Assembly (NCBI RefSeq): GCF_040537815.1
Contig: NZ_JBEWSZ010000001.1
Location: 3,782,001 to 3,846,000, forward strand
Length of the DNA: 64,000 nucleotides
Direction of reading: 5' to 3'
Origin: Mesorhizobium shangrilense
Lineage (GTDB): Bacteria; Pseudomonadota; Alphaproteobacteria; Rhizobiales; Rhizobiaceae
Below the pieces are notes generated by a model. The model saw nothing but the letters and a program-made list of their open reading frames with translations, ran no database searches and was not told the origin of the DNA. The translations under genes were made by a program, and so were the position numbers. How positions within the stretch are numbered: the first letter of the stretch is position 1; each line of letters starts with the position of its first letter. Shown here one piece after another: positions 2,352 through 48,769 of the stretch.

Positions 2352-2747
2352 ATGCACACCATCCTGCAGCCGGAAGGCTGGGCCAAACCAGTCGGCTACG
2401 CCAACGGCGTCGCCGCGCGCGGGCAGCTTGTCTTCGTCGGCGGGCAGATCGGCTGGAACGGGCAATGCCAGTTCGAAACCGATGATTTTGTCGGCCAGGT
2501 GCGCCAGACGCTTGAGAATGTCGTTGCGGTTCTGGCCGAAGCCGGCGCCGGCCCGCAGCACATCACCTCGATGACCTGGTATTTTACCGACAAGGCCGAA
2601 TATCTCGCCAACCTCAGAGGTCTCGGCGAGGCCTACCGCGCGGTCATCGGCCGGCACTATCCCGCCATGGCCGCCATGCAGGTGGTGTCGCTTGTCGAGG
2701 ACCGGGCCAAGATCGAAATCCAGGCCACCGCCGTTATCCCGGAATAG
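2352..2747 (+). CDS. RidA/YjgF/YER057c family protein
   Basis: A 131-residue protein of the RidA fold. These proteins form trimers and hydrolyse reactive enamine/imine intermediates or related compounds. Recognisable segments are the N-terminal GYANGVAARGQLVFVGGQIGW, the central VRQTLENVVAVLAEAGA helix and the C-terminal MAAMQVVSLVEDRAKIEIQATAV. A RidA subunit in an acyl-CoA operon suggests an amino- or imino-bearing intermediate, which fits aminobenzoyl-CoA-type breakdown, but this is inference. The start ATG follows GGGAG with a 7-nt gap. It is convergent with the following minus-strand monooxygenase, with only 34 bp between stops. Confidence 0.88.
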   Translation: MHTILQPEGWAKPVGYANGVAARGQLVFVGGQIGWNGQCQFETDDFVGQVRQTLENVVAVLAEAGAGPQHITSMTWYFTDKAEYLANLRGLGEAYRAVIGRHYPAMAAMQVVSLVEDRAKIEIQATAVIPE

Positions 2748-2781
2748 CCAATCTCCGGAACAATCGCCCTCCTGGAATAAT

Positions 2782-3873
2782 TTATTCGCGAAGCCCGACC
2801 TGCCGCAGCAGCGGCAGCACGCGGTCGCAGAAATAGGGCAGTTCCTGCGTGTAGTTCACGAAGGACAGCGCGATGCCCTGATAGCCCTGCCCGGCAATGG
2901 CAGCCATGTCGGCGGCGATCGTCTCCGGCGTACCGACCAGCGGATAGGTGCCGGCGCCGCCGGCAAAACGCTGCCGGTAGCGGTCATAGGCATGCGTGTC
3001 GTGCGACTGGGAGAACTCCTTCTTGCCCGCCATATGCGCGTCGACAGCGTCATGGTCCGCCATATCAACGGCGTATCTGTCATAATAGGCCTGCGCCTCT
3101 TCCATGGTCTCCCGGCAGACGACATGCGCCACCGTGTAGACACCGACATCGCGCCCATGCTTGTCGGCACGTTCTCTGATATCGATGACATGCTTGCCGG
3201 CATCGGCCATTTCCGAAAAGGTCGTGAACAGGTAGTCGCATTTGGCGGACGCGAAATCGCGACCCGGTCCGCCGAAGGCAGCGTTCATGGTCACCGGTCG
3301 CGGAACCTGCAGACTGGCCGGCCGGCTGACCGCTTCCTTGAGGCGATAATAGGTGCCTTCGTAGTCGAGTGGCTCGTCGGCGGCATAGAGTTTCTCAACG
3401 ATCTCGATCCATTCCGCCGCCTGGTCGTAGCCCTTCTCGACCAGCGGCGTGCCGAACATGCCGAATTCCTTCGGGTTCCAGCCGCAGACAATATTGAGGC
3501 CGGCGCGCCCGTTGCTGATGTGGTCAACCGTCGCCAGCGACTTGGCGGCGTAAAGCGGATGCACCAGCGGCACATGCACCGTCATGAACAGGCCGATCCG
3601 ATCGGTGGCGGCGGCAAGAGCGGCCGCCCAGGTGAAGGTCTCGAACGACCATTCCCGCACCTTGTTGCGGCCACCAAAACCGCGCCAGCGGGCGATCGGC
3701 AGCATGAACTCCAGGCCGGCGCGGTCGGCGATCTGCGCCGCCGTAAGATTGTCCCGCCAGGTTGCCGTCCAACGTTCCGGTACATCGGTGATGGCCAGCC
3801 CGCCATCGGCATTGGTCGAAAAGACGCCGAGCTTCAGTTTGTTCGGGCCTTGCAGGGGATGCGCTTTGATCAT
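2782..3873 (-). CDS. LLM-class flavin-dependent monooxygenase (RutA/SfnG-like)
   Basis: A 363-residue protein of the bacterial luciferase-like family, which uses reduced FMN and O2 to oxidise small organic substrates. RutA (pyrimidine ring opening) and alkyl sulfone/sulfide monooxygenases are the closest types by eye. Family signatures are ARWRGFGG, ATDRIGLFMTVH, a central DHISNGRAGLNIVCGWN and a C-terminal GTPETIAADMAAIAGQGY. ATG at 3873 is chosen because the 13 residues encoded further upstream are outside the family pattern. It is divergent from the aldolase gene at 3996 and shares a 120-bp intergenic region that contains an 18-bp dyad. No partner flavin reductase is seen nearby, so FMNH2 would have to come from elsewhere. 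Confidence 0.85.
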   Translation of the reverse strand: MIKAHPLQGPNKLKLGVFSTNADGGLAITDVPERWTATWRDNLTAAQIADRAGLEFMLPIARWRGFGGRNKVREWSFETFTWAAALAAATDRIGLFMTVHVPLVHPLYAAKSLATVDHISNGRAGLNIVCGWNPKEFGMFGTPLVEKGYDQAAEWIEIVEKLYAADEPLDYEGTYYRLKEAVSRPASLQVPRPVTMNAAFGGPGRDFASAKCDYLFTTFSEMADAGKHVIDIRERADKHGRDVGVYTVAHVVCRETMEEAQAYYDRYAVDMADHDAVDAHMAGKKEFSQSHDTHAYDRYRQRFAGGAGTYPLVGTPETIAADMAAIAGQGYQGIALSFVNYTQELPYFCDRVLPLLRQVGLRE

Positions 3874-4948: not shown

Positions 4949-6139
4949 ATGCCGCCCCAGTCAACGTCCATGGCGCGCTATGCCTTCGATGGCATCCGCG
5001 CGCAAATCCGTGACCTTCACACCGAAAACATCGCCAACCTTGCCGTACGCGCGCGTGAACTGGGCGACGTGATCGCGCTCTGGTACGGCGAAGGCGACAT
5101 GGTGACGCCCGCCTTCATCCGCGACGCTGCCAAGGCGGCGTTCGATGACGGCCAGACCTTCTATGTCCCCAACATGCGGGGCCTCGGCCCGCTCAATGAA
5201 GCGCTGTCGGACTACCAGACGCGCTTGCACGGACGATCGATCCCCGTCGCGCGCACCACGGTGACACCGGGCGGCATGCAGGCGCTTTATCTGGCCCTGG
5301 AACTGCTCGTCGATGTCGGTACGAACGTCGTCTATGTCGCCCCGCAATGGCCCAACATCCACAATGCCATCCACCTGATCGGCGGCGAGCCGCGTCCGTT
5401 TTCGCTCGACTTCAAGGGCGACTGGCGGCTCGACCTCGACCGGCTGTTTGCGACCTGCGATGCGCGCACGCGGGCAATCTTCCTGTCAACGCCGTCCAAC
5501 CCGACCGGCTGGACCGCGTCACGCCAGGAGATGCAAGCCCTGCTCGACTTCAGCAGGCGCACCGGTACCTGGATCATCTCCGACGAGGTCTATGGCCGGC
5601 TCTATTTCGACGGCGACGTTGCTCCCTCGATCCTGCAGATCGCCGAGGACGGCGACCGGGTGCTGTCGGTCAACAGTTTTTCCAAGGCCTGGGCGATGAC
5701 CGGCTGGCGCATCGGCTGGCTGACGCACCCGTCCGGCGTGGCCGACCAGCTCGGCGCCATGACCCAGTATGTCAACAGCGGCACCGCCGCCCCGATCCAG
5801 GCCGGCGCCGTCGCGGCCATCCGCCAGGGCGAGCCGCTGGTCGAGGAGATCCGGCAGAGGATCAAGACCGGTCTCGACCTCGCCTATGACAGGCTTGGGC
5901 AGATTCCCGGCATCGTGCTGCCCACGAAACCGCGCGGCGGCATGTATGCGTTCTTCGCCATGGAAGGCGAAAGGGATGCACGGCAGGCCTGCGCGAAAAT
6001 CCTGGAGACGGCACGGGTCGGGCTGGCGCCTGGCCATCTCTTCGGCAATTCTTCAGCAGCCTTCCTGCGCATGTGCGTTTGCCGGGATCGCGACCAGATC
6101 GCAACCGCGCTCGATCGCATGAGCGCGGCCATGAATTGA
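4949..6139 (+). CDS. Pyridoxal-phosphate aminotransferase, class I/II
   Basis: A 396-residue fold-type I aminotransferase that would move an amino group between an amino acid and a 2-oxo acid. The cofactor pocket is clear: TPGGMQALYLAL, STPSNPTGW, ISDEVYGRLYF, and the Schiff-base lysine in NSFSKAWAMTGWRIGW. The start is uncertain: ATG 4949 is used, TTG 4934 follows AAGAGG, and ATG 4970 is also possible. The gene is followed by a polar amino acid binding protein and permease, so the substrate may be the compound those proteins import. A catabolic role is more likely than biosynthesis given the neighbours. Confidence 0.87.
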   Translation: MPPQSTSMARYAFDGIRAQIRDLHTENIANLAVRARELGDVIALWYGEGDMVTPAFIRDAAKAAFDDGQTFYVPNMRGLGPLNEALSDYQTRLHGRSIPVARTTVTPGGMQALYLALELLVDVGTNVVYVAPQWPNIHNAIHLIGGEPRPFSLDFKGDWRLDLDRLFATCDARTRAIFLSTPSNPTGWTASRQEMQALLDFSRRTGTWIISDEVYGRLYFDGDVAPSILQIAEDGDRVLSVNSFSKAWAMTGWRIGWLTHPSGVADQLGAMTQYVNSGTAAPIQAGAVAAIRQGEPLVEEIRQRIKTGLDLAYDRLGQIPGIVLPTKPRGGMYAFFAMEGERDARQACAKILETARVGLAPGHLFGNSSAAFLRMCVCRDRDQIATALDRMSAAMN

Positions 6140-6213
6140 CGCCCCGCCGGGAGCGAGGCGGCAAAAAACCGTGCGGGACCAACCCGCCCGATCAACAACC
6201 AGAGGGAACAAAA

Positions 6214-7011
6214 ATGAACTTCACACGTCGTAACCTGCTTCTTCTCGCCGCCGCCATCGGCATCGCCGCCGGCCCCGCAACCGCCTATGCGGCGGACGTG
6301 CTGAACGTCGGCGCCTATCCGACCAACCCGCCCTTCGAGTTCAAGAACGAGAGCGGCACGTTCGAGGGTTTCGAGGTCGACATCGTCAACGAGGCCGCCA
6401 AGCGCATCGGCATGACCACGGACATCGCCGATCTCGGATTCCAGGCGCTGTTTGCCGCCACCACATCGAAGCGCATCGACGTCGCCATTTCGTCGATCAC
6501 CATCACGCCGGAACGGCTGAAGTCGCAGTCGTTCACCCAGCCCTATTATGATTCCGACATGGGCATCGCGACCAAGTCCGACAGCCCGATCAAGGCCGAG
6601 GCCGACCTCAAGGGCAAGATCATCGGCGTGCTGTCCGGCTCGACCGGCGAAACCTGGGTCAAGGCGCACCAGGAAGCCGACGGGTTCAGCGACGTGAAGG
6701 GCTATGACACGCAGCAGAACCTGCTGCTCGACCTCAGCGCCGGCCGTGTCGATGCCGCGGTCAGCGACATTCCAGGCATGCAGTATGCCTTCACCAAGAT
6801 GAAGGATCTGGTCGTCAAGGAGCGCATCAAGACCGGCGAGCAGTACGGCCTGATGATGACCAAGGACCACCCGCTGCTCGGCAAGCTGAACGACGCGCTG
6901 ACCGCGATGAAGAAGGACGGCACGCTCGCCGCGATCCACAAGAAGTGGTTCGGCAACGACGCACCGGCCGATTCTTCGACCGCCAAGGAAATGCCGCTGC
7001 CGAAGGCCTGA
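6214..7011 (+). CDS. Polar amino acid ABC transporter, substrate-binding protein
   Basis: A 265-residue periplasmic binding protein of the SBP_bac_3 family. It begins with a signal peptide (MNFTRRNLLLLAAAIGIAAG, cleavage probably after AYA at about residue 28), followed by LNVGAYPTNPPFEF, the usual first beta strand of cystine/glutamine/histidine-type binders. FEGFEVDIVNEAAKRIG and ISSITITPERLKSQSFTQPYY are further family landmarks. The ATG follows AGAGGGA. A strong stem-loop downstream (7027-7057) separates it from the permease gene, which could let the binding protein be made in excess of the membrane subunit. Ligand unknown. Confidence 0.9.
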   Translation: MNFTRRNLLLLAAAIGIAAGPATAYAADVLNVGAYPTNPPFEFKNESGTFEGFEVDIVNEAAKRIGMTTDIADLGFQALFAATTSKRIDVAISSITITPERLKSQSFTQPYYDSDMGIATKSDSPIKAEADLKGKIIGVLSGSTGETWVKAHQEADGFSDVKGYDTQQNLLLDLSAGRVDAAVSDIPGMQYAFTKMKDLVVKERIKTGEQYGLMMTKDHPLLGKLNDALTAMKKDGTLAAIHKKWFGNDAPADSSTAKEMPLPKA

Positions 7012-42360: not shown

Positions 42361-43788
42361 TCACCCATGCGCCACCATCACATGCCGGACAGCGGTGTAG
42401 TCCTCCAGCGCGTAGAGCGACATGTCCTTGCCGTAGCCGGACTGCTTCAGCCCGCCATGCGGCATCTCGTTGGTCAGCATGAAGTGGGTGTTTATCCAGG
42501 TGCAGCCATATTGCAGGCGGGCCGCCGTCGCCATGGCGCGCGAGACATCCTTTGTCCACACCGATGATGCCAGGCCGTAGTCGCTGTCGTTGGCCCAGTT
42601 CACCGCCTCGTCGACTTCCGTGAAACGAGTGACCGAGACGACCGGGCCGAACACTTCGCGGCGCACGATCTCGTCTTCCTGCAAGGCGCCGGCAATGACG
42701 GTCGGCTGGTAATAGAAGCCGGTGCCCTCGCCCGGCTTGCCGCCGGTGGTGATCTCGATGTGCTTCAGTTCCGAGGCGCGCTCGACGAAGCTCGATACGC
42801 GGTCGCGCTGGCGCCGCGAGATCAACGGCCCGATCTCGTTTTCCGTATCATCCGGACGATTGTACTTGATGGTCGAGACCGCCGAGGACAGCTCGGCGAC
42901 AAGCTTGTCGTAGATCTTCTTGCCGGCATAGATGCGGCAGGCGGCGGTACAGTCCTGGCCGGCGTTGTAATAGCCGAAGGCGCGCAGGCCGTTGACCACC
43001 GCGCCGAGATCGGCGTCATCGAAGACGATGACCGGGGCCTTGCCGCCGAGCTCGAGATGGGTGCGCTTGACCGACTTGGCGGCCGCCTGCAGCACCTTCT
43101 TGCCGGTGGCGACGTCACCGGTGATCGAGATCATGTTGACCTTGGGATGGTTGATCAGCGTGTTGCCGACGCTGTCGCCACGGCCGAGCACGACGTTGAC
43201 AACGCCTTCGGGCAGGATCTCGGCAAGGATTTTTGCCAGCTTCAGCGCCGTCAGCGGCGTCTGTTCGGAAGGCTTGAAGACGACCGTATTGCCGCCGGCG
43301 ATCGCCGGCGCCAGCTTCCAGGCCATCATCATCAGCGGATAGTTCCACGGCGCGATGGAGGCGACGATGCCGATCGGGTCGCGGCGGACCATCGAGGTGT
43401 GGCCGGGCAGGTATTCACCGGCGACCACGCCCGGCATCGAGCGCACGGCGCCGGCGAAGAAGCGGTAGCAGTCGACGATCGCCGGTATTTCGTCATTCAG
43501 CACGGCATTGATCGGCTTGCCGCAATTCAACGCCTCGAGCGCCGCGAACTCCTTCGCGTCGGCCTCGATGCGGTCGGCGATCTTCAGCAAATAGCCGGAG
43601 CGCTGTGCCGGCGTTGTGCGCGACCACAAGACGAACGCTTGTTCGGCGGCGAGCACCGCCGCCTCGATCTGCGCCTGGCTGGCTTCGGGCAGGTTGAGGA
43701 TTGTCGCCCCGGTCTTCGGATTGAGGATCGGCTCCTCGGTTTCCGTGCCCTTCTCGAACTTCGAGCCGATCAGCATCTGGGTGTCCAT
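42361..43788 (-). CDS. Gamma-aminobutyraldehyde dehydrogenase-like aldehyde dehydrogenase
   Basis: A 475-residue NAD(P)-dependent aldehyde dehydrogenase. The motifs are [22 protein letters not shown], the Glu of LELGGKAP (general base), the catalytic Cys in [11 protein letters not shown], and EVFGPVVSV. By its length, the [10 protein letters not shown] stretch and operon context it fits the PatD/YdcW group acting on 4-aminobutanal from putrescine. Other amino-aldehydes or betaine aldehyde remain possible. It is the last gene of the minus-strand potD-A-B-(insert)-C operon, consistent with polyamine import followed by oxidation to GABA. Confidence 0.87.
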
Positions 43789-43813: not shown

Positions 43814-44629
43814 TTATTTGCCCGAACCGGCGATCTGGTCGCCGTCGCGGGTCAGGTAATAGGCGGCAAGGATGGGCAGCAGCGTCACCATCACGACGAC
43901 CATGGCCACGACATTGGTGACCGGGCGCTGGCGCGGGCGGATCAGCTCTTCGAGCATCCAGATCGGCAGCGTCTGCTGCTGGCCGGCGGTGAATGTGGTG
44001 ACGATGACCTCGTCGAAGGACAAAGCGAAGGCCAGCATGCCGCCGGCAAGCAGCGCGGTCGCGATGTTGGGCAGCACGACGTGCCGGAAGGTCTGGAAGC
44101 CATCAGCGCCGAGATCCATCGACGCCTCTATCATCGAGCCCGAGGTGCGGCGGAAGCGGGCGACGGCGTTGTTGTAGACAACGACGACACAGAAAGTGGC
44201 GTGGCCGAGCACGATCGTCCAGAACGAGAAAGGAATGTCGGTCAGCGCGAAGGCCGAGCGCAGCGCGATGCCGGTGATGATGCCTGGCAGCGCGATCGGC
44301 AGGATGACCAGCAGCGAGATGGTTTCCCGGCCGAAGAATTTTGTCCGCGACACCGCTGCCGAGCACAGCGTGCCGAGGACCAGTGCGATCGCGGTCGAAA
44401 AAGCCGCGACCCTGACCGACAGCGACAGCGCCTGCCAGACATCCGGCCGGTTCCAGGTGACGGCGAACCATTGCGTGGTCAGCCCGGGCGGCGGCCAGAC
44501 GAAGCTCTTTTCCTCGGTGGTGAAGGCGTAGACGAAGATCAAGAGGATCGGCAGGTGCAGGAACAGCAGGCCGCAGGCGGCGGCGACCTTCAGGCCGAGG
44601 GGAGCGGATTGACCACGATCAGAGCGCAT
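43814..44629 (-). CDS. potC: Polyamine-type ABC transporter permease PotC
   Basis: A 271-residue inner-membrane permease with about six hydrophobic segments. It carries the PotC-type N-terminal helix [34 protein letters not shown] and the EAA loop [21 protein letters not shown] (about residues 166-186). The last helix reads [21 protein letters not shown]. The first 11 nucleotides of the gene (ATGCGCTCTGA) are also the end of the upstream orphan gene and are identical to the end of potB. So before the orphan gene appeared, potC would have overlapped potB by the same 11 nt. The ribosome-binding site now comes from the insert (GGTGGGA). Confidence 0.92.
44619..44629 (-). repeat. 11-bp direct repeat, copy 2 (potC start / insert stop)
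   Basis: TCAGAGCGCAT on the plus strand (ATGCGCTCTGA in the gene sense). This copy contains the potC start codon and the stop codon of the orphan gene. It is identical to 45226-45236. Confidence 0.95.
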
Positions 44630-45236
44630 TTTTTTCCCACCCGACCTTGGCAGATCCAGCTGCGATATCTTCGCGTGCCTCTCGATAATAGGCAGCTAGC
44701 AGCTCGTTCAACTGGCTCTCATCCTGACGCGGCAGTTTAAGACGCTCGCGCATGGCCTCGAATCTAGGCTTTAGAGCATCCTCCAGTCTGAGCACCTGAT
44801 GACGAACTTCTGCGATCTTCGTTAGGAGCAGCCAACAGCCTTCTTCAGATTCAAAATAGGCTGCTTCATCACGCATAAAATGATGCGCGAAATAATCACG
44901 TAGCCGTTTTGCATCAGCGAAGCTCGATCTCAGATCAGAGAACTCAGCAATTGAGCAGACCTTCTTTGTGAGATTGCCGAAGGTCAGCGCCACAGCCTGT
45001 TCGTAGCCGCTGTCAAACGCCGATTCCCAAGTTAATCGAGATCGAATTTTTCCTGTCCGCACTCCCTCGCCCACACTCCAGAAAGTTAGGACATTGATCA
45101 ACGAATGTTCCACCAAACCGAACTTCAGAAATGCCAAGCCGAAATGAGCGAATACTTCTTTTTGAAATATGATCTCCGGATTTCCGAGCTCTGGGAACTC
45201 GACTAGCAACTTTGCTTTCGCATCTTCAGAGCGCAT
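44619..45236 (-). CDS. Orphan HEPN-like gene inserted between potB and potC
   Basis: A 205-residue cytoplasmic, mainly helical protein with no family I can name. [14 protein letters not shown] (Arg113, His118/119) gives an R-x4-H motif of the HEPN type (a variant, with Asp in place of the canonical Asn), and a preceding helix [19 protein letters not shown] fits the four-helix HEPN bundle. Many HEPN proteins are RNases in toxin or defence systems. Its start ATGCGCTCTGA overlaps the last codons of potB and its end overlaps the first codons of potC, each by 11 nt. GC content is visibly lower than the neighbours (many AAA, TTT, GAA codons), which suggests transfer. There is no transposase and no antitoxin partner. 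It would be translated with the polyamine transporter genes. Confidence 0.82.
45226..45236 (-). repeat. 11-bp direct repeat, copy 1 (potB stop / insert start)
   Basis: Identical to 44619-44629. This copy contains the potB stop codon (TGA) and the ATG of the inserted orphan gene. Together the two copies bracket a 607-bp unit (one repeat copy plus 596 bp of foreign-looking DNA). Confidence 0.95.
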
Positions 45237-46194
45237 CGAAGGCCCCCATGCGTTTGGCGCCCCAGAGGTAGAAGCCCATGATGATGATGGGCACCACCGT
45301 GAAAGCGGCGGCAAGCGGGATGTTGCCGGCGGTGCCCTGCTGGGCATAGACGGCCTGGCCGATGAACAGCCGCGACGTGCCGATGATCTGCGGGATGATG
45401 TAGTCGCCGAGTGTCAGCGAGAAGGTGAAGATCGAGCCGGCGACGATGCCGGGCAACGCCAGCGGGAACAGCACATTGCGAAAGGTCTGGCCGGGCGAGG
45501 CGCCGAGGTCGGACGAGGCCTCGACCAGATTGCCGGGCACGCGTTCGAGCGCCGCCTGCACCGGCAGGATCATGAAGGGCAGCCAGACATAGACGAAGAC
45601 GATGAAGGTGCCGGTGAACGACACCGACAGCGAGTTGCCGCCAACCACAGGCAGCGACAGCCAGGCATCGAGCAGCCATTGCAGATGCAGCTTGCCTAGC
45701 AGCCAGGTGAGGATGCCTTCCTTGGCCAGGATCAGCTTCCAGGCGTAGATCTTGACCAGGTAGCTCGACCACAACGGCAGCATGATGCCGAGATAGAACA
45801 GTGCCTTCCAGCGGCCGCGCGCATAGCGTGCAGCATAGTAGGCAATGGGGAAGGCGACGATGGCCGAGGCCAGCGTGACCAATGCCGCCATCGTCACCGT
45901 GCGCAGGATGATATCGAGATTGGCGGCCTGGAACAGGTCGCCATAGGTCTTCAACGTGAACTGGCGGTTGATGAGGCCCGAGTACTCGTCGATGGAGAAA
46001 AAGCTCTGCGCCAGCAGGGCGAACAGCGAGCCGATGTAGACGATGCCGAGCCACAGCAAGGGCGGCAAGAGCATCAGCAGCAGCAGCACCTTGGGCTTGC
46101 GCCAGAAAAGGTCCGACAGCGCGCCGCGCAAGCCGCCACTGCCCGGCAGGATGGCGGGAGCGGTGGCGCGTGGCATGGTGGCGTCGAGGCTCAT
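45226..46194 (-). CDS. potB: Polyamine-type ABC transporter permease PotB
   Basis: A 322-residue inner-membrane permease. A polar N terminus is followed by the first helix (VLLLLMLLPPLLWLGIVYIGSLFALLAQSF). The EAA loop NLVEASSDLGASPGQTFRNVLFPLALPG (about residues 221-248) binds the ATPase, and FSLTLGDYIIPQIIG is a PotB landmark. Its start overlaps the PotA stop (ATGA). Its end, GAFDAL-stop, lies in the repeated 11 bp: GAT GCG CTC TGA, with the frame intact despite the inserted gene. It works with PotA, PotC and PotD. Confidence 0.93.
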   Translation of the reverse strand: MSLDATMPRATAPAILPGSGGLRGALSDLFWRKPKVLLLLMLLPPLLWLGIVYIGSLFALLAQSFFSIDEYSGLINRQFTLKTYGDLFQAANLDIILRTVTMAALVTLASAIVAFPIAYYAARYARGRWKALFYLGIMLPLWSSYLVKIYAWKLILAKEGILTWLLGKLHLQWLLDAWLSLPVVGGNSLSVSFTGTFIVFVYVWLPFMILPVQAALERVPGNLVEASSDLGASPGQTFRNVLFPLALPGIVAGSIFTFSLTLGDYIIPQIIGTSRLFIGQAVYAQQGTAGNIPLAAAFTVVPIIIMGFYLWGAKRMGAFDAL

Positions 46195-47189
46195 GCCGGC
46201 TCGTCCATCAGATGCAGGCTGTCACGATTGAAGGTCAGCACCACCGCTTCGCCCTCCTGCGGCAAGGTGGTGCCGGCAGGCACGACCGCGTGCAGTCGCA
46301 GCCCATCGGCATCAACAGACAGCTTTGTCGTGGCGCCGAGATAATTGGTCGAGACTAGGCGCGCGGAAACACCTTCGCCGCTGGCCGCGCGACCGACGCG
46401 AATGGATTCGGGGCGCAGGCTGCCCCAGCGGTGCTGGCCGCAATAGCGCTGGACGAAACCTGGCGGCAACACGTTCGACGAACCGACGAAATCGGCGACG
46501 AAGCGGGTCTTCGGCCGCTGGTAGATATCCTCCGGCGTGCCGATCTGCATGATCTTGCCGTCGTTGAAGACGGCGACGCGGTCGGCCATCGACAGGGCCT
46601 CGCCTTGATCGTGGGTGACGAACACGAAGGTGATGCCGAGCGCCTTCTGCAGCGACTTCAGCTCTTCCTGCATGTTTTCGCGCAGCTTGAGGTCGAGCGC
46701 GCCGAGCGGCTCGTCGAGCAACAGCACCTTGGGCTGGTTGACCAGCGCACGGGCGAGCGCGACGCGCTGGCGCTGGCCGCCGGACAACTGGCCGGGCCGG
46801 CGCGCGCCATAGCCGGGCAGCCGTACCAGCGACAACGCTTCTTCAGCTGCCTTTTGGCGCTCGGCCTTGCCGACGCCCTTGACCATCAGCCCGTAGGCGA
46901 CGTTGTCGAGCACGTTGAGATGCGGGAACAGCGCATAGTCCTGGAACACCGTGTTGACGTTGCGGCGATAGGGCGGCACGCCCTCGGCACGCTCGCCGAA
47001 GATCGAGATCGAACCCGATGTCGGCTGCTCGAAGCCGGCGATGAGGCGCAGGCACGTCGTCTTGCCGGAGCCCGAGGGCCCGAGCATGGCGAAGAATTCG
47101 CCCGGCACGATGTCGAGATCAACCGCGTCGACAGCGCGCACGCTGCCGAAATGGCGGGAGACTTGTCTGAAGGAAACGGCTGAGGTCAT
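46191..47189 (-). CDS. potA: Polyamine-type ABC transporter ATP-binding protein PotA
   Basis: A 332-residue ATPase. Walker A GPSGSGKTT, Q-loop TVFQDYALFPHLNV, signature LSGGQRQRVALARAL, Walker B VLLLDEPLGALDLKLRE and the His-loop FVTHDQGEAL are intact. A C-terminal TOBE-type domain follows (RPESIRVG, LVSTNYLGATTKLSV). This domain pattern fits spermidine/putrescine or Fe3+/sulfate-type importers, and the neighbouring aldehyde dehydrogenase favours putrescine. ATG 47189 is used; the frame extends upstream to 47270 without a signal. It is preceded by hairpin repeats separating it from potD. Confidence 0.92.
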   Translation of the reverse strand: MTSAVSFRQVSRHFGSVRAVDAVDLDIVPGEFFAMLGPSGSGKTTCLRLIAGFEQPTSGSISIFGERAEGVPPYRRNVNTVFQDYALFPHLNVLDNVAYGLMVKGVGKAERQKAAEEALSLVRLPGYGARRPGQLSGGQRQRVALARALVNQPKVLLLDEPLGALDLKLRENMQEELKSLQKALGITFVFVTHDQGEALSMADRVAVFNDGKIMQIGTPEDIYQRPKTRFVADFVGSSNVLPPGFVQRYCGQHRWGSLRPESIRVGRAASGEGVSARLVSTNYLGATTKLSVDADGLRLHAVVPAGTTLPQEGEAVVLTFNRDSLHLMDEPA

Positions 47190-47256
47190 GGGTTGTCCTG
47201 ATCTTTCAGGCTTTTCAATTCGAGCGGCAGTGCTGCCGCTCATCCGCCTGCCGGCA

Positions 47257-47339
47257 CCTTCTCCCCGCATAGAGACGGGGAGAAGGGAGAAGCTCCCGCG
47301 CTGACGCCCCCCTCTCCCCGTCTCTATACGGGGAGAGGG
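47257..47339. repeat. Hairpin repeat pair between potD and potA
   Basis: CCTTCTCCCCG/CGGGGAGAAGG (47257-47286) and CCCTCTCCCCGT/ACGGGGAGAGGG (47310-47339) form two stable stem-loops, the same element family seen elsewhere. Inside a binding-protein/ATPase gap, it may give potD transcript extra stability. Confidence 0.85.
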
Positions 47340-47385
47340 TAAGGGTGAGGGGCAGCGTCAACCTATCAATAAATGCGTGGCGAAA

Positions 47386-48543
47386 TCACCGACCGCCGAT
47401 GACGCCGATATAGTCCGACACCCAACGGTAGTAGGGCACGCACTGGTCGTTCTGGCTGGCGCATTTCGACACCGGGGTCTTCCAGAACTTGATCTTGTCG
47501 AAGTTCTCGTAGCCGTTGGTCTTGCAGCCTTCCTCGCCGAGCAGTTCGTTGCCCTTGCAGGCGGCCGGCACAACCGGAAGCGAGCCGAACCAGGCCGAAA
47601 CATCGCCCTGCACTTTCGGTGCCAGCGAGTGCTCGAGCCACTTGTAGGCACAGTTCGGATTGGCCGCGTCGGCTTCCATCATCGTGGTGTCGGCCCAGCC
47701 GGTGACACCTTCCTCGGGAACGGTCGAGGCGATCGGCTTCTTGGCGGCGACCAGCGTGTTGACCTGGAACGGCCACGAACCCGAGGCGACAACGCCTTCG
47801 TTCTGGAAGTCGTCGACCTGGATCGCCGCGTCATGCCAGTAGCGGCCAACCAGCGTGCGCTGGACGCGCAGCAGCGCGAGTGCAGCCTTGTACTGGTCTT
47901 CGTTCAGTTCGTAGGGATCCTTGATGCCCAGCTCCGGCTTGTGGAACATCAAATAGTTGGCGGCGTCCGCGATGTGGATCGGTCCGTCATAAGCCTGGAC
48001 GCGGCCCTTGTTGGACTTGCCGTCCGGCAGGTTCATTTCCTCGAAGACGACGTTCCAGCTCTTCGGCGCTTGCTTGAACACGTCGGTGTTGTACATCAGG
48101 ATGTTCGGGCCCCACTGGTAGGGGACACCATAATGGACGCCGCCGACAGTGAACCATGGCGCGTTCTTCAAGCGGTCGTCGACCGTCTTCCAGCTTGGGA
48201 TGAGATCGGTGTTGATCGGCTGGACGCGCTTGCCGGCGACGAGGCGCAACGAGGCATCCCCTGAGGCCGTGACGAGGTCGAAACCACCCTCGTTCATCAG
48301 CGAGACCATCTCGTCGGAGGTGTTGGCGGTCTTGACGTTGACCTTGCAGCCGGTCTCCTTCTCGAAGGAGGTGACCCAGTCATACCCCTTGTCGGTCTCG
48401 CCGCGCTCGATATAGCCCGGCCACGCGACAATGTTGACCTGACCCTCGCCCTTGCCGAGTTCCTTGACCTGGGCGACTGCCTGGCCGGAGAAGGTCAGCG
48501 CGACCGTCAAAGCAGTGCATGACTTCAAAAATGAATTCATCAT
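47386..48543 (-). CDS. potD: Polyamine-type ABC transporter substrate-binding protein PotD
   Basis: A 385-residue periplasmic protein of the PotD/SBP_bac_8 type. A signal peptide (MNSFLKSCTALTVALTFSG, cut after AVA) is followed by QVNIVAWPGYIERG, the typical polyamine-binder opening. FDLVTASGDASLRLVAG and VPYQWGPNILMYNTD are family features. The protein has several Cys near the C terminus (CAYKW, CKGNELLGEEGCK, KCASQNDQC), possible disulfides. ATGs at 48543 and 48540 both follow GGGAG; TTG 48546 is also in frame. It is the first gene of the potDAB-insert-C operon. The LysR gene 226 bp upstream is on the same strand. Confidence 0.9.
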   Translation of the reverse strand: MMNSFLKSCTALTVALTFSGQAVAQVKELGKGEGQVNIVAWPGYIERGETDKGYDWVTSFEKETGCKVNVKTANTSDEMVSLMNEGGFDLVTASGDASLRLVAGKRVQPINTDLIPSWKTVDDRLKNAPWFTVGGVHYGVPYQWGPNILMYNTDVFKQAPKSWNVVFEEMNLPDGKSNKGRVQAYDGPIHIADAANYLMFHKPELGIKDPYELNEDQYKAALALLRVQRTLVGRYWHDAAIQVDDFQNEGVVASGSWPFQVNTLVAAKKPIASTVPEEGVTGWADTTMMEADAANPNCAYKWLEHSLAPKVQGDVSAWFGSLPVVPAACKGNELLGEEGCKTNGYENFDKIKFWKTPVSKCASQNDQCVPYYRWVSDYIGVIGGR

Positions 48544-48769
48544 CAATCTCCCATTTTGGCGCGTGACCCCGAAACCCGGATCGGCTTTCGGAACGGATCA
48601 TGCGCGAACTTAAAGTGTCAGTTCGCCCGATGGCGAGCAGCGCTCCAAGGGGCCGCACTTGCGGCGGCTTTGGTCCCTGAGATGCAAGGTGCTGTGAAAA
48701 TTCCGGTTTCGCAAATTCATTTATCAGAAAGGCGATATCGGTTTTCCCGATAGGTCGACGAGAATATTG

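Follow-up and report, generated by a model that had tools for sequence, protein, structure and literature searches.

A gene with a HEPN-type motif in the duplicated potB/potC overlap of Mesorhizobium shangrilense and other hosts

How can a conserved operon take in a gene at a point where two of its own genes overlap, and keep both of them whole? The question is raised by a locus of Mesorhizobium shangrilense (contig NZ_JBEWSZ010000001.1, positions 3,782,001 to 3,846,000; this whole 64-kb stretch is called the window, and coordinates count from its first base). In the window, a gene for a 205-residue protein with a HEPN-type motif (open reading frame (ORF) at 44619..45236, -) lies between two permease genes of an ATP-binding cassette (ABC) transporter. 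Both permeases match Pfam BPD_transp_1, and we take them, in line with a preliminary description of the window, to be potB (45226..46194, -) and potC (43814..44629, -). Our reading, which we rate about as likely as not, is that the inserted gene would encode a solo HEPN ribonuclease, with a probable role as an effector of abortive infection or stress, and would move horizontally with one preferred address: the ATGCGCTCTGA overlap of potB and potC in the polyamine-transporter operon of Rhizobiales.

The 11 bases ATGCGCTCTGA occur exactly twice in the window, both times on the - strand. The left copy (45226..45236) consists of the potB end and the start of the inserted gene, and the right copy (44619..44629) of the end of the inserted gene and the start of potC; the two are 607 bp apart, start to start. 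potB ends with GAT GCG CTC TGA, the inserted gene begins ATG CGC TCT GAA and finishes AAT GCG CTC TGA, and potC starts with ATG CGC TCT GAT. The preliminary description had read these letters as a 607-bp unit in a duplicated overlap, with both host frames intact and the inserted gene starting within one copy and stopping within the other, and the ORFs and end codons agree with it throughout. A chance repeat is ruled out, as two matches to ATGCGCTCTGA were reached in none of 100 dinucleotide shuffles; the 8.35-Mb genome as a whole has five copies of the 11-mer, two of them at this junction. The gene was also said to be richer in AT than its surroundings, and its GC content is indeed 49.5%, against 63.7% and 65.0% in the 600 bp on each side. 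The genome has only one copy of the gene (next match, E 0.17). The unit encodes no transposase domain, its single, co-directional gene being the HEPN-motif gene, and no inverted repeats of at least 10 bp pair the two unit ends in the window or in two further filled loci, L004 and L005 (shorter ones were not searched for). This agrees with the earlier remark that no transposase and no terminal inverted repeats are seen.

If a gene had been inserted here, close relatives should have a single ATGCGCTCTGA and no inserted gene. This is the state of the nearest genome found, the Mesorhizobium genome G129, in which each of the two window copies is represented by one and the same single copy. The 40 bases that follow its ATGCGCTCTGA are identical to those after the right copy of the window, and mismatches between the two genomes are evenly spread over the fetched flanks, the first standing 27 bases upstream and 53 bases downstream. 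A DNA search of 146 Mesorhizobium genomes matched 144 and left two without a match; 14 were not fetched, and 130 junctions were read. The exact 11-bp potB/potC overlap, empty, was found in 128 of these, with the same letters in 127 and ATGCGCTTTGA in one; the remaining two are the filled window and a locus with an 83-bp spacer (L161). Six of seven junctions are empty and one is filled in the genus of G669, the L004 genome, and among 21 Shinella genomes 19 are empty, one is filled (G680, the L005 genome) and one has no locus. A family-wide sample drew on the 179 genomes that matched in a search of 394. Of its 104 loci, 11 of which belong to genomes included above, 86 have the exact overlap, two are again the filled loci L004 and L005, and 16 are junctions with spacers of 153-263 bp. 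By hand tally, 250 distinct genomes of the family divide into 230 empty, three filled and 17 with non-coding spacers. In the wider order (L327-L376, not all from distinct genomes), 34 of 50 loci have an 11-bp overlap, 28 with the letters ATGCGCTCTGA; the corresponding figure in the family sample is 85 of 86. The gene is rare, as profile searches of 397 genomes of the order and 394 of the family found any relative at all in only 3 and 6, respectively. An assembly artefact is ruled out by independent assemblies with the same structure and by relatives with a single copy.

To find the inserted gene elsewhere, one genome per species was scanned with an alignment of 28 relatives, which gave 21 loci. 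In six other hosts the gene lies at the identical base and runs in the transporter's direction: L004 (Rhizobiales), L005 (Shinella), L006 (a Rhizobiaceae metagenome-assembled genome, MAG), L007 (Pararhizobium), L008 (Rhizobium) and L011 (a proteobacterial MAG). The operon order is conserved in all six as far as the contigs reach. The exact repeat is 11 bp long in the window, L004, L008 and L011, 12 bp in L007 and 13 bp in L005; L006 has one mismatch between its two copies, L011 has the variant ATGCACTCTGA in both, and in L008 the inserted gene stops just short of the right copy. In an eighth host (L009, a Xanthobacteraceae MAG) the gene also lies between potB and potC, and its right side has diverged. 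Across the eight potB/potC hosts the gene has a GC content of 38-50% in flanks of 60-69%. A one-off recombination event, which the preliminary description had offered as one possibility, does not fit the same family at the same base in six other hosts, nor a conflict between gene and host trees for one pair of them (see below). The other possibility offered, a mobile unit aimed at start-stop overlaps, is cast too widely: this one overlap is filled in seven hosts, and no other overlap was found occupied. The expectation that homologues would again lie in a duplicated overlap holds for the six other hosts, but not for the Pannonibacter locus L010 and more distant relatives, which lie elsewhere without notable flanking repeats; this is in part the outcome that the preliminary description had named as speaking against it.

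Did the gene reach each host with DNA from a donor's flanks? With bases numbered from where the right copy begins, letters of the host genus resume at base 12 (window, L005) or 16 (L004), and on the left side they do so from base 23-24. Within 250 nt, donor-like letters number 0 in the window, 5 in L004 (4 of them downstream) and 2 in L005. In the first 50 nt outside the unit, the window has 1 mismatch upstream and 2 downstream to the nearest empty genome, and 6-12 and 12-36, respectively, to the six other filled loci. L005 differs from empty Shinella at 0-2 positions upstream and at best 3 downstream, and from filled loci at 5-14 and 13-34; for L004 the best values to empty relatives are 1 and 4, and those to filled loci 7-15 and 7-29. 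The flanks are thus host-like right up to the repeat, clearly so in the window and L005 and more thinly in L004; L009 was left out of these tests, and L006, L007, L008 and L011, which have no close empty relatives among the fetched loci, say little. Import by homologous recombination of long tracts is disfavoured in the window and L005, where there is no donor-like tract, and only weakly so in L004.

The main rival explanation is allele exchange with very short tracts. One or two old insertions would have been followed by spread of the filled alleles through homologous recombination in the flanks, either with short tracts or with mismatch repair that returned the letters around an unrepaired 607-nt loop to those of the host. 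The filled loci have the same flanking genes, which would serve as arms of homology and account for the fixed address, and a left stretch, GGGGGCCTTCGATGCGCTCTGA, is common to several hosts. On the right, however, only 11-15 bp are shared before the first difference (window, L004, L005, L006, L007 and L008), and 11-15 bp is under the usual RecA minimum. There is also no donor-like tract in the window and L005, while the evidence in L004 is thin. We consider allele exchange possible but doubtful.

A second question is how often the gene arrived. In the tree of the pot genes L007 and L008 are sisters (98/98), yet their inserted genes are only 43% identical, and a common clade for these two genes was rejected by the approximately unbiased (AU) test (p 0.0046 on 31 rows and 0.020 on 8). 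Because gene and host trees conflict for this pair, the gene must have arrived at the junction more than once. Several nodes of both the pot and the gene tree are weak. L008's potC has frameshifts; the pot tree therefore uses no more than the first 100 codons of this gene, and the potC divergence values of L008 are void. In this complete genome (CP087974.1) tblastn splits potA, potC, potD and the aldehyde dehydrogenase gene as frameshifts would, probably through sequencing errors. The inserted genes of L004 and L005 have a synonymous divergence of 1.42, against 0.54 for potB and 0.44 for potC of the same two loci; all other pairs of inserted genes are at 1.48 or above, or saturated. A midpoint-rooted tree of the 130 Mesorhizobium flanks has eight forks on the way to the window genome. 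At every one of them (support 0.38 at one fork) the sister clade is free of the gene, which means one gain or about eight losses. In a gene tree rooted on Paracoccus and Ruegeria relatives, L008 branches first, then the L010 group (P0023, P0024 and P0026), then the other junction genes, with support of 95/80 at the fork above L008.

These trees bear on the opposite history, in which the gene is an ancestral member of the operon that was lost many times by precise deletions between the 11-bp repeats. Such a deletion would restore the junction exactly and make host-like flanks trivial. Gene and host divergence rise roughly in step between the deeper groups, and a non-junction branch splits L008 from the other junction genes in the rooted tree, a picture that could also come from old residence at the junction and a later escape. 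Against it stand the eight losses needed on the path to the window in place of one gain (130 Mesorhizobium flanks, the weak node included), the L007/L008 conflict, the excess synonymous divergence of the L004-L005 gene pair, the low GC content of the gene in every host, and the 17 spacers, in which nothing resembles the gene except matches of 12-21 residues at chance level. As a sole account, ancestry with losses is rejected by the forks of the flank tree, the L007/L008 conflict and the synonymous divergence; we consider it very improbable.

The spacers deserve a description of their own. They are GC-rich, mostly palindromic and non-coding, measure 83-263 bp (L161, L258, L264, L274, L295 and L312 are examples) and occur in 17 of the 250 genomes, in several genus codes including g189 and g169. 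At spacer junctions potB ends with ATGCGCTGTGA or a similar variant and potC starts with ATGCGCTCTGA or similar; the 11-mer has drifted in the potB copy and is mostly kept in the potC copy. In another family of the order, L357 (G208) has a 675-nt stretch between potB and potC with an ORF on the opposite strand (2624-3001, -), which reads like a putative DUF559 endonuclease.

The spacers and L010 count in favour of an absence of targeting. Insertions would then have been random and illegitimate, only those that copied the overlap would have survived, and the exact repeat would be an effect of selection. In 17 of the 250 genomes the palindromic spacers also open the overlap and leave a similar potB end and potC start, and L010 shows a relative in ordinary intergenic DNA. 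However, random entry should mostly leave a rare gene at other harmless sites, and what is found is one copy in the window genome and seven hosts with the gene at the same base. We judge untargeted insertion improbable.

The loci outside the operon are themselves varied. The L010 gene follows what is presumably a GNAT-like gene and has a putative small upstream partner. The more distant loci are not in a pot operon and have no notable repeat. The only other Mesorhizobium match, L003 (G054:C32:17093-17548), is distant (33% identity) and also outside the pot operon; the gene upstream of it is presumably a LacI-like regulator. L015 (Pontivivens, 6001-6573), a distant relative, is interrupted early by an in-frame stop and appears to be a pseudogene. 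In two Paracoccus genomes, the distant relatives L012 and L014 have similar sequence on the opposite strand just downstream of 6600, which may be a second fixed address. L016 lies beside a gene that, from its sequence, we take to be a phage integrase, and its protein is identical to that of L025, the one viral contig with a member of the family, and that only a distant relative. In plasmid and phage collections, tblastn with the window protein gave no match, and a DNA search with the L005 junction returned 39 plasmid records, none covering 80% of the query and hence none a close copy of a filled junction.

If the gene enters at this one overlap, its own ends should be fitted to the potB frame. 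Termini were compared in 39 of 43 relatives (P0040-P0043 were dropped as weak, and fragments were judged by eye), a set that includes the window protein and those of four more filled loci, P0012, P0013, P0030 and P0035. A start inside the Ala-Leu-stop end of potB requires residues 2-4 to be [RHLP][SYCF][DEKNSR], and of the 36 relatives with a native start 26 fit (background 0.015 per three residues). The fitting starts include MRYE, MRCE, MHSD, MLSK and MLYE, which correspond to other potB codons or stops. An end in the right copy requires a residue with an xAT codon followed by Ala-Leu, and 20 of 37 relatives end in [NDHY]AL (background 0.004 per three residues). Since the relatives are akin and the set holds the window and four other filled loci, these counts are not independent. 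The terminus variants nevertheless follow the frame of potB and not one fixed sequence.

Translation signals may be shared as well. The 20 bases at the potB 3' end that precede the inserted gene (45237..45256, -) form a Shine-Dalgarno-like stretch that would originally have been potC's, and their duplex with the anti-Shine-Dalgarno sequence has an energy of -8.4 kcal/mol. The 3' end of the inserted gene, with its VGWEK codons (44630..44649, -), now precedes potC and may serve as a new Shine-Dalgarno-like stretch, at -7.0 kcal/mol in the window and -4.8 to -7.9 over seven filled loci. For reference, the mean is -8.2 at empty junctions and -2.2 (standard deviation 2.25) for random 20-mers.

Together these features suggest how an insertion might work. 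Entry would be by a site-specific or very-short-homology process acting inside the 11-mer. As the unit contains only the one gene, this process would be provided in trans. The inserted gene would then be translated from the former potC ribosome-binding stretch in potB, while its 3' end, with the conserved VGWE tail codons, would give potC a new one. The transporter would keep working, and the cargo would be expressed along with it. As a general scheme, the unit would be an element without a mobility gene that uses the ATG...TGA translational overlap as its attachment site; a process in trans would recognise and duplicate the overlap and could cleanly remove the insertion, and the cargo would borrow its start, stop, ribosome-binding site and expression from the operon. 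This scheme is offered tentatively.

What could the inserted gene do? In alignment A1 (28 rows), Y115, F116, A117 and H118 are invariant and R113 is at least 90% conserved; the codons of this Rx4H motif, R113-DYFA-H118, lie at 44883..44900 (-). The rule for HEPN proteins is Rx4-6H, the R being followed by a polar residue (N, D or H), as described in PMC3710099, and the window protein has R113-D-Y-F-A-H118. One relative, P0012, bears the UniRef name HEPN AbiU2-like. The AlphaFold2 model, with a pLDDT (predicted local distance difference test) score of 91, is all helical. No Pfam or NCBIfam family was above cut-off for the window protein, and no HEPN family was found among the 28 members in a Pfam scan with E up to 1. 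A DNA endonuclease domain was likewise not found in the Pfam scans (28 members) or the NCBIfam scans (6 members), in which no family matches at all. PD-T4-2_B of PADLOC, from the PD-T4-2 anti-phage system, is weakly matched by 6 of the 28 relatives (best E 2.1e-4), with no match for the window protein at E up to 1, and phrog_12893, a phrog without assigned function, is weakly matched by 11 of the 28. The likeliest function would be that of a solo HEPN effector of defence or stress, and the motif suggests that the protein is a ribonuclease.

Independently of how the gene moves, the protein might instead be an RNA-level regulator of the transporter. A precedent exists in MtlR, a HEPN protein whose gene is often part of the mannitol operon and which acts as its repressor (PMC3710099), and in all eight hosts the gene shares the direction and the position of the transporter genes. 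Yet the gene is absent from 247 of the 250 junctions read, and it keeps its Rx4H motif while a large fraction of MtlR proteins have lost theirs (PMC3710099). Its distant relatives, including L016 beside the putative phage integrase and the identical protein of the viral contig L025, are outside transporter operons. A regulatory role thus seems unlikely to us, and a solo effector remains the preferred function.

Several observations weigh against a mobile gene with a preferred address. The duplication is demanded by the reading frames: any insertion that leaves potB and potC whole must copy at least 11 bases, so the length of the repeat by itself reveals no enzyme, and selection alone would fix this minimum, as the 17 genomes with spacers also illustrate. 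No recombinase, excision product or trans-acting enzyme was identified, no attachment-like sequence shared by the inner unit ends was obvious by eye beyond the VGWE codons, and the protein has no family or fold match (Pfam and NCBIfam; an empty PDB sequence search; no significant structural match to the model with Foldseek and VIA-align). The AU test on L007 and L008 was chosen after the identities had been seen, the gene of L008 sits at the end of a long branch, and the reverse test (pot data against L004+L005+L007) gave p 0.117. The right flank of L004 is host-like by a small margin, with 4 mismatches to G460 and 7 to the filled L008, and a donor from the same genus would look like no donor flank at all. 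The L010 gene (42% identity) is found outside the operon and has no repeats. Because its group falls among the junction genes, separate branches would have entered the address two or more times, or the branch of L010 would have left it. Selection, for its part, leaves unexplained why one rare family is at the same base in seven hosts and why host letters stand directly outside the repeat.

The rest of the operon keeps a conserved order. Upstream of potB lie ORFs that we take to be potA, for the transporter ATPase (46191..47270, -), and potD, for the substrate-binding protein (47386..48546, -), and the operon is closed by a presumed aldehyde dehydrogenase gene (42361..43788, -). Between potA and potD, positions 47255-47341 are palindrome-like; the only Rfam matches there are several micro-RNA families, on both strands, with scores far under the gathering threshold.

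The locus shows how a conserved operon can take in a defence-type gene and stay whole, with entry at a single base position, in different genera and on more than one occasion. Should the movement prove site-specific, an enzyme acting on a protein-coding overlap would await discovery, and start-stop overlaps would become possible attachment sites. The signature of a duplicated overlap is simple: a 9-25 bp k-mer from the ATG or GTG of an ORF of 80-1200 residues to an out-of-frame stop, found again as the last bases of that ORF, its stop included. Over the window together with 1.18 Mb of fetched loci, some of which overlap, it matched only members of the inserted-gene family (L006 and L008, whose ends differ, are missed), so that other such genes can be searched for genome-wide. 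Further, with empty and filled junctions defined to the base, the mechanism is open to direct tests. Searches of the literature, several of them narrow (titles and openings of abstracts), gave no recognised report of a HEPN gene in a polyamine operon or of genes inserted in start-stop overlaps.

How does the unit compare with known systems? As for an insertion sequence, a transposon or a miniature inverted-repeat transposable element (MITE), the target is present twice when filled and once when empty, but a transposon or MITE is rejected because there is no transposase domain and there are no terminal inverted repeats of at least 10 bp. Nobusato et al. reportedly described in 2000 the insertion of a restriction-modification gene with a long target duplication. 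The present case resembles such insertions in that a defence-type gene lies between copies of a host target and is recognised by comparing filled and empty genomes (PMC3031569). It differs in that restriction-modification insertions have target duplications that are long and variable (PMC3031569), whereas here there are 11 bp (12 in L007, 13 in L005), set by the overlap, at one address and with more than one arrival. Like the free-standing homing genes of T4-like phages (intronless homing), the inserted genes are single intronless genes between conserved neighbours; those homing genes code for DNA endonucleases and have co-conversion tracts (PMC2988022), while here there is an RNase-type motif, no clear co-conversion and a duplicated overlap. 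As a single-gene mobile unit it also recalls integron cassettes, and a HEPN cassette exists (PDB 3jrt, PMC3710099). An integron cassette is rejected, however, because the reading frame and its stop codon extend to the last base of the right repeat and leave no room for attC within the unit, and the target is a chromosomal coding overlap. The conserved R-x4-H, the D/N after the R and the all-helical model are shared with the HEPN superfamily, AbiU2 and related Abi families (PMC3710099). Unlike AbiU2 and related Abi families, the protein has no Pfam match and its gene is lodged in a metabolic transporter operon. Finally, integrative elements restore tRNA genes or gene 3' ends by direct att repeats and carry their own integrase. 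Here, too, direct core repeats regenerate a host gene, but the 607-bp unit is a single gene, and it regenerates a 3' end and a 5' start together.

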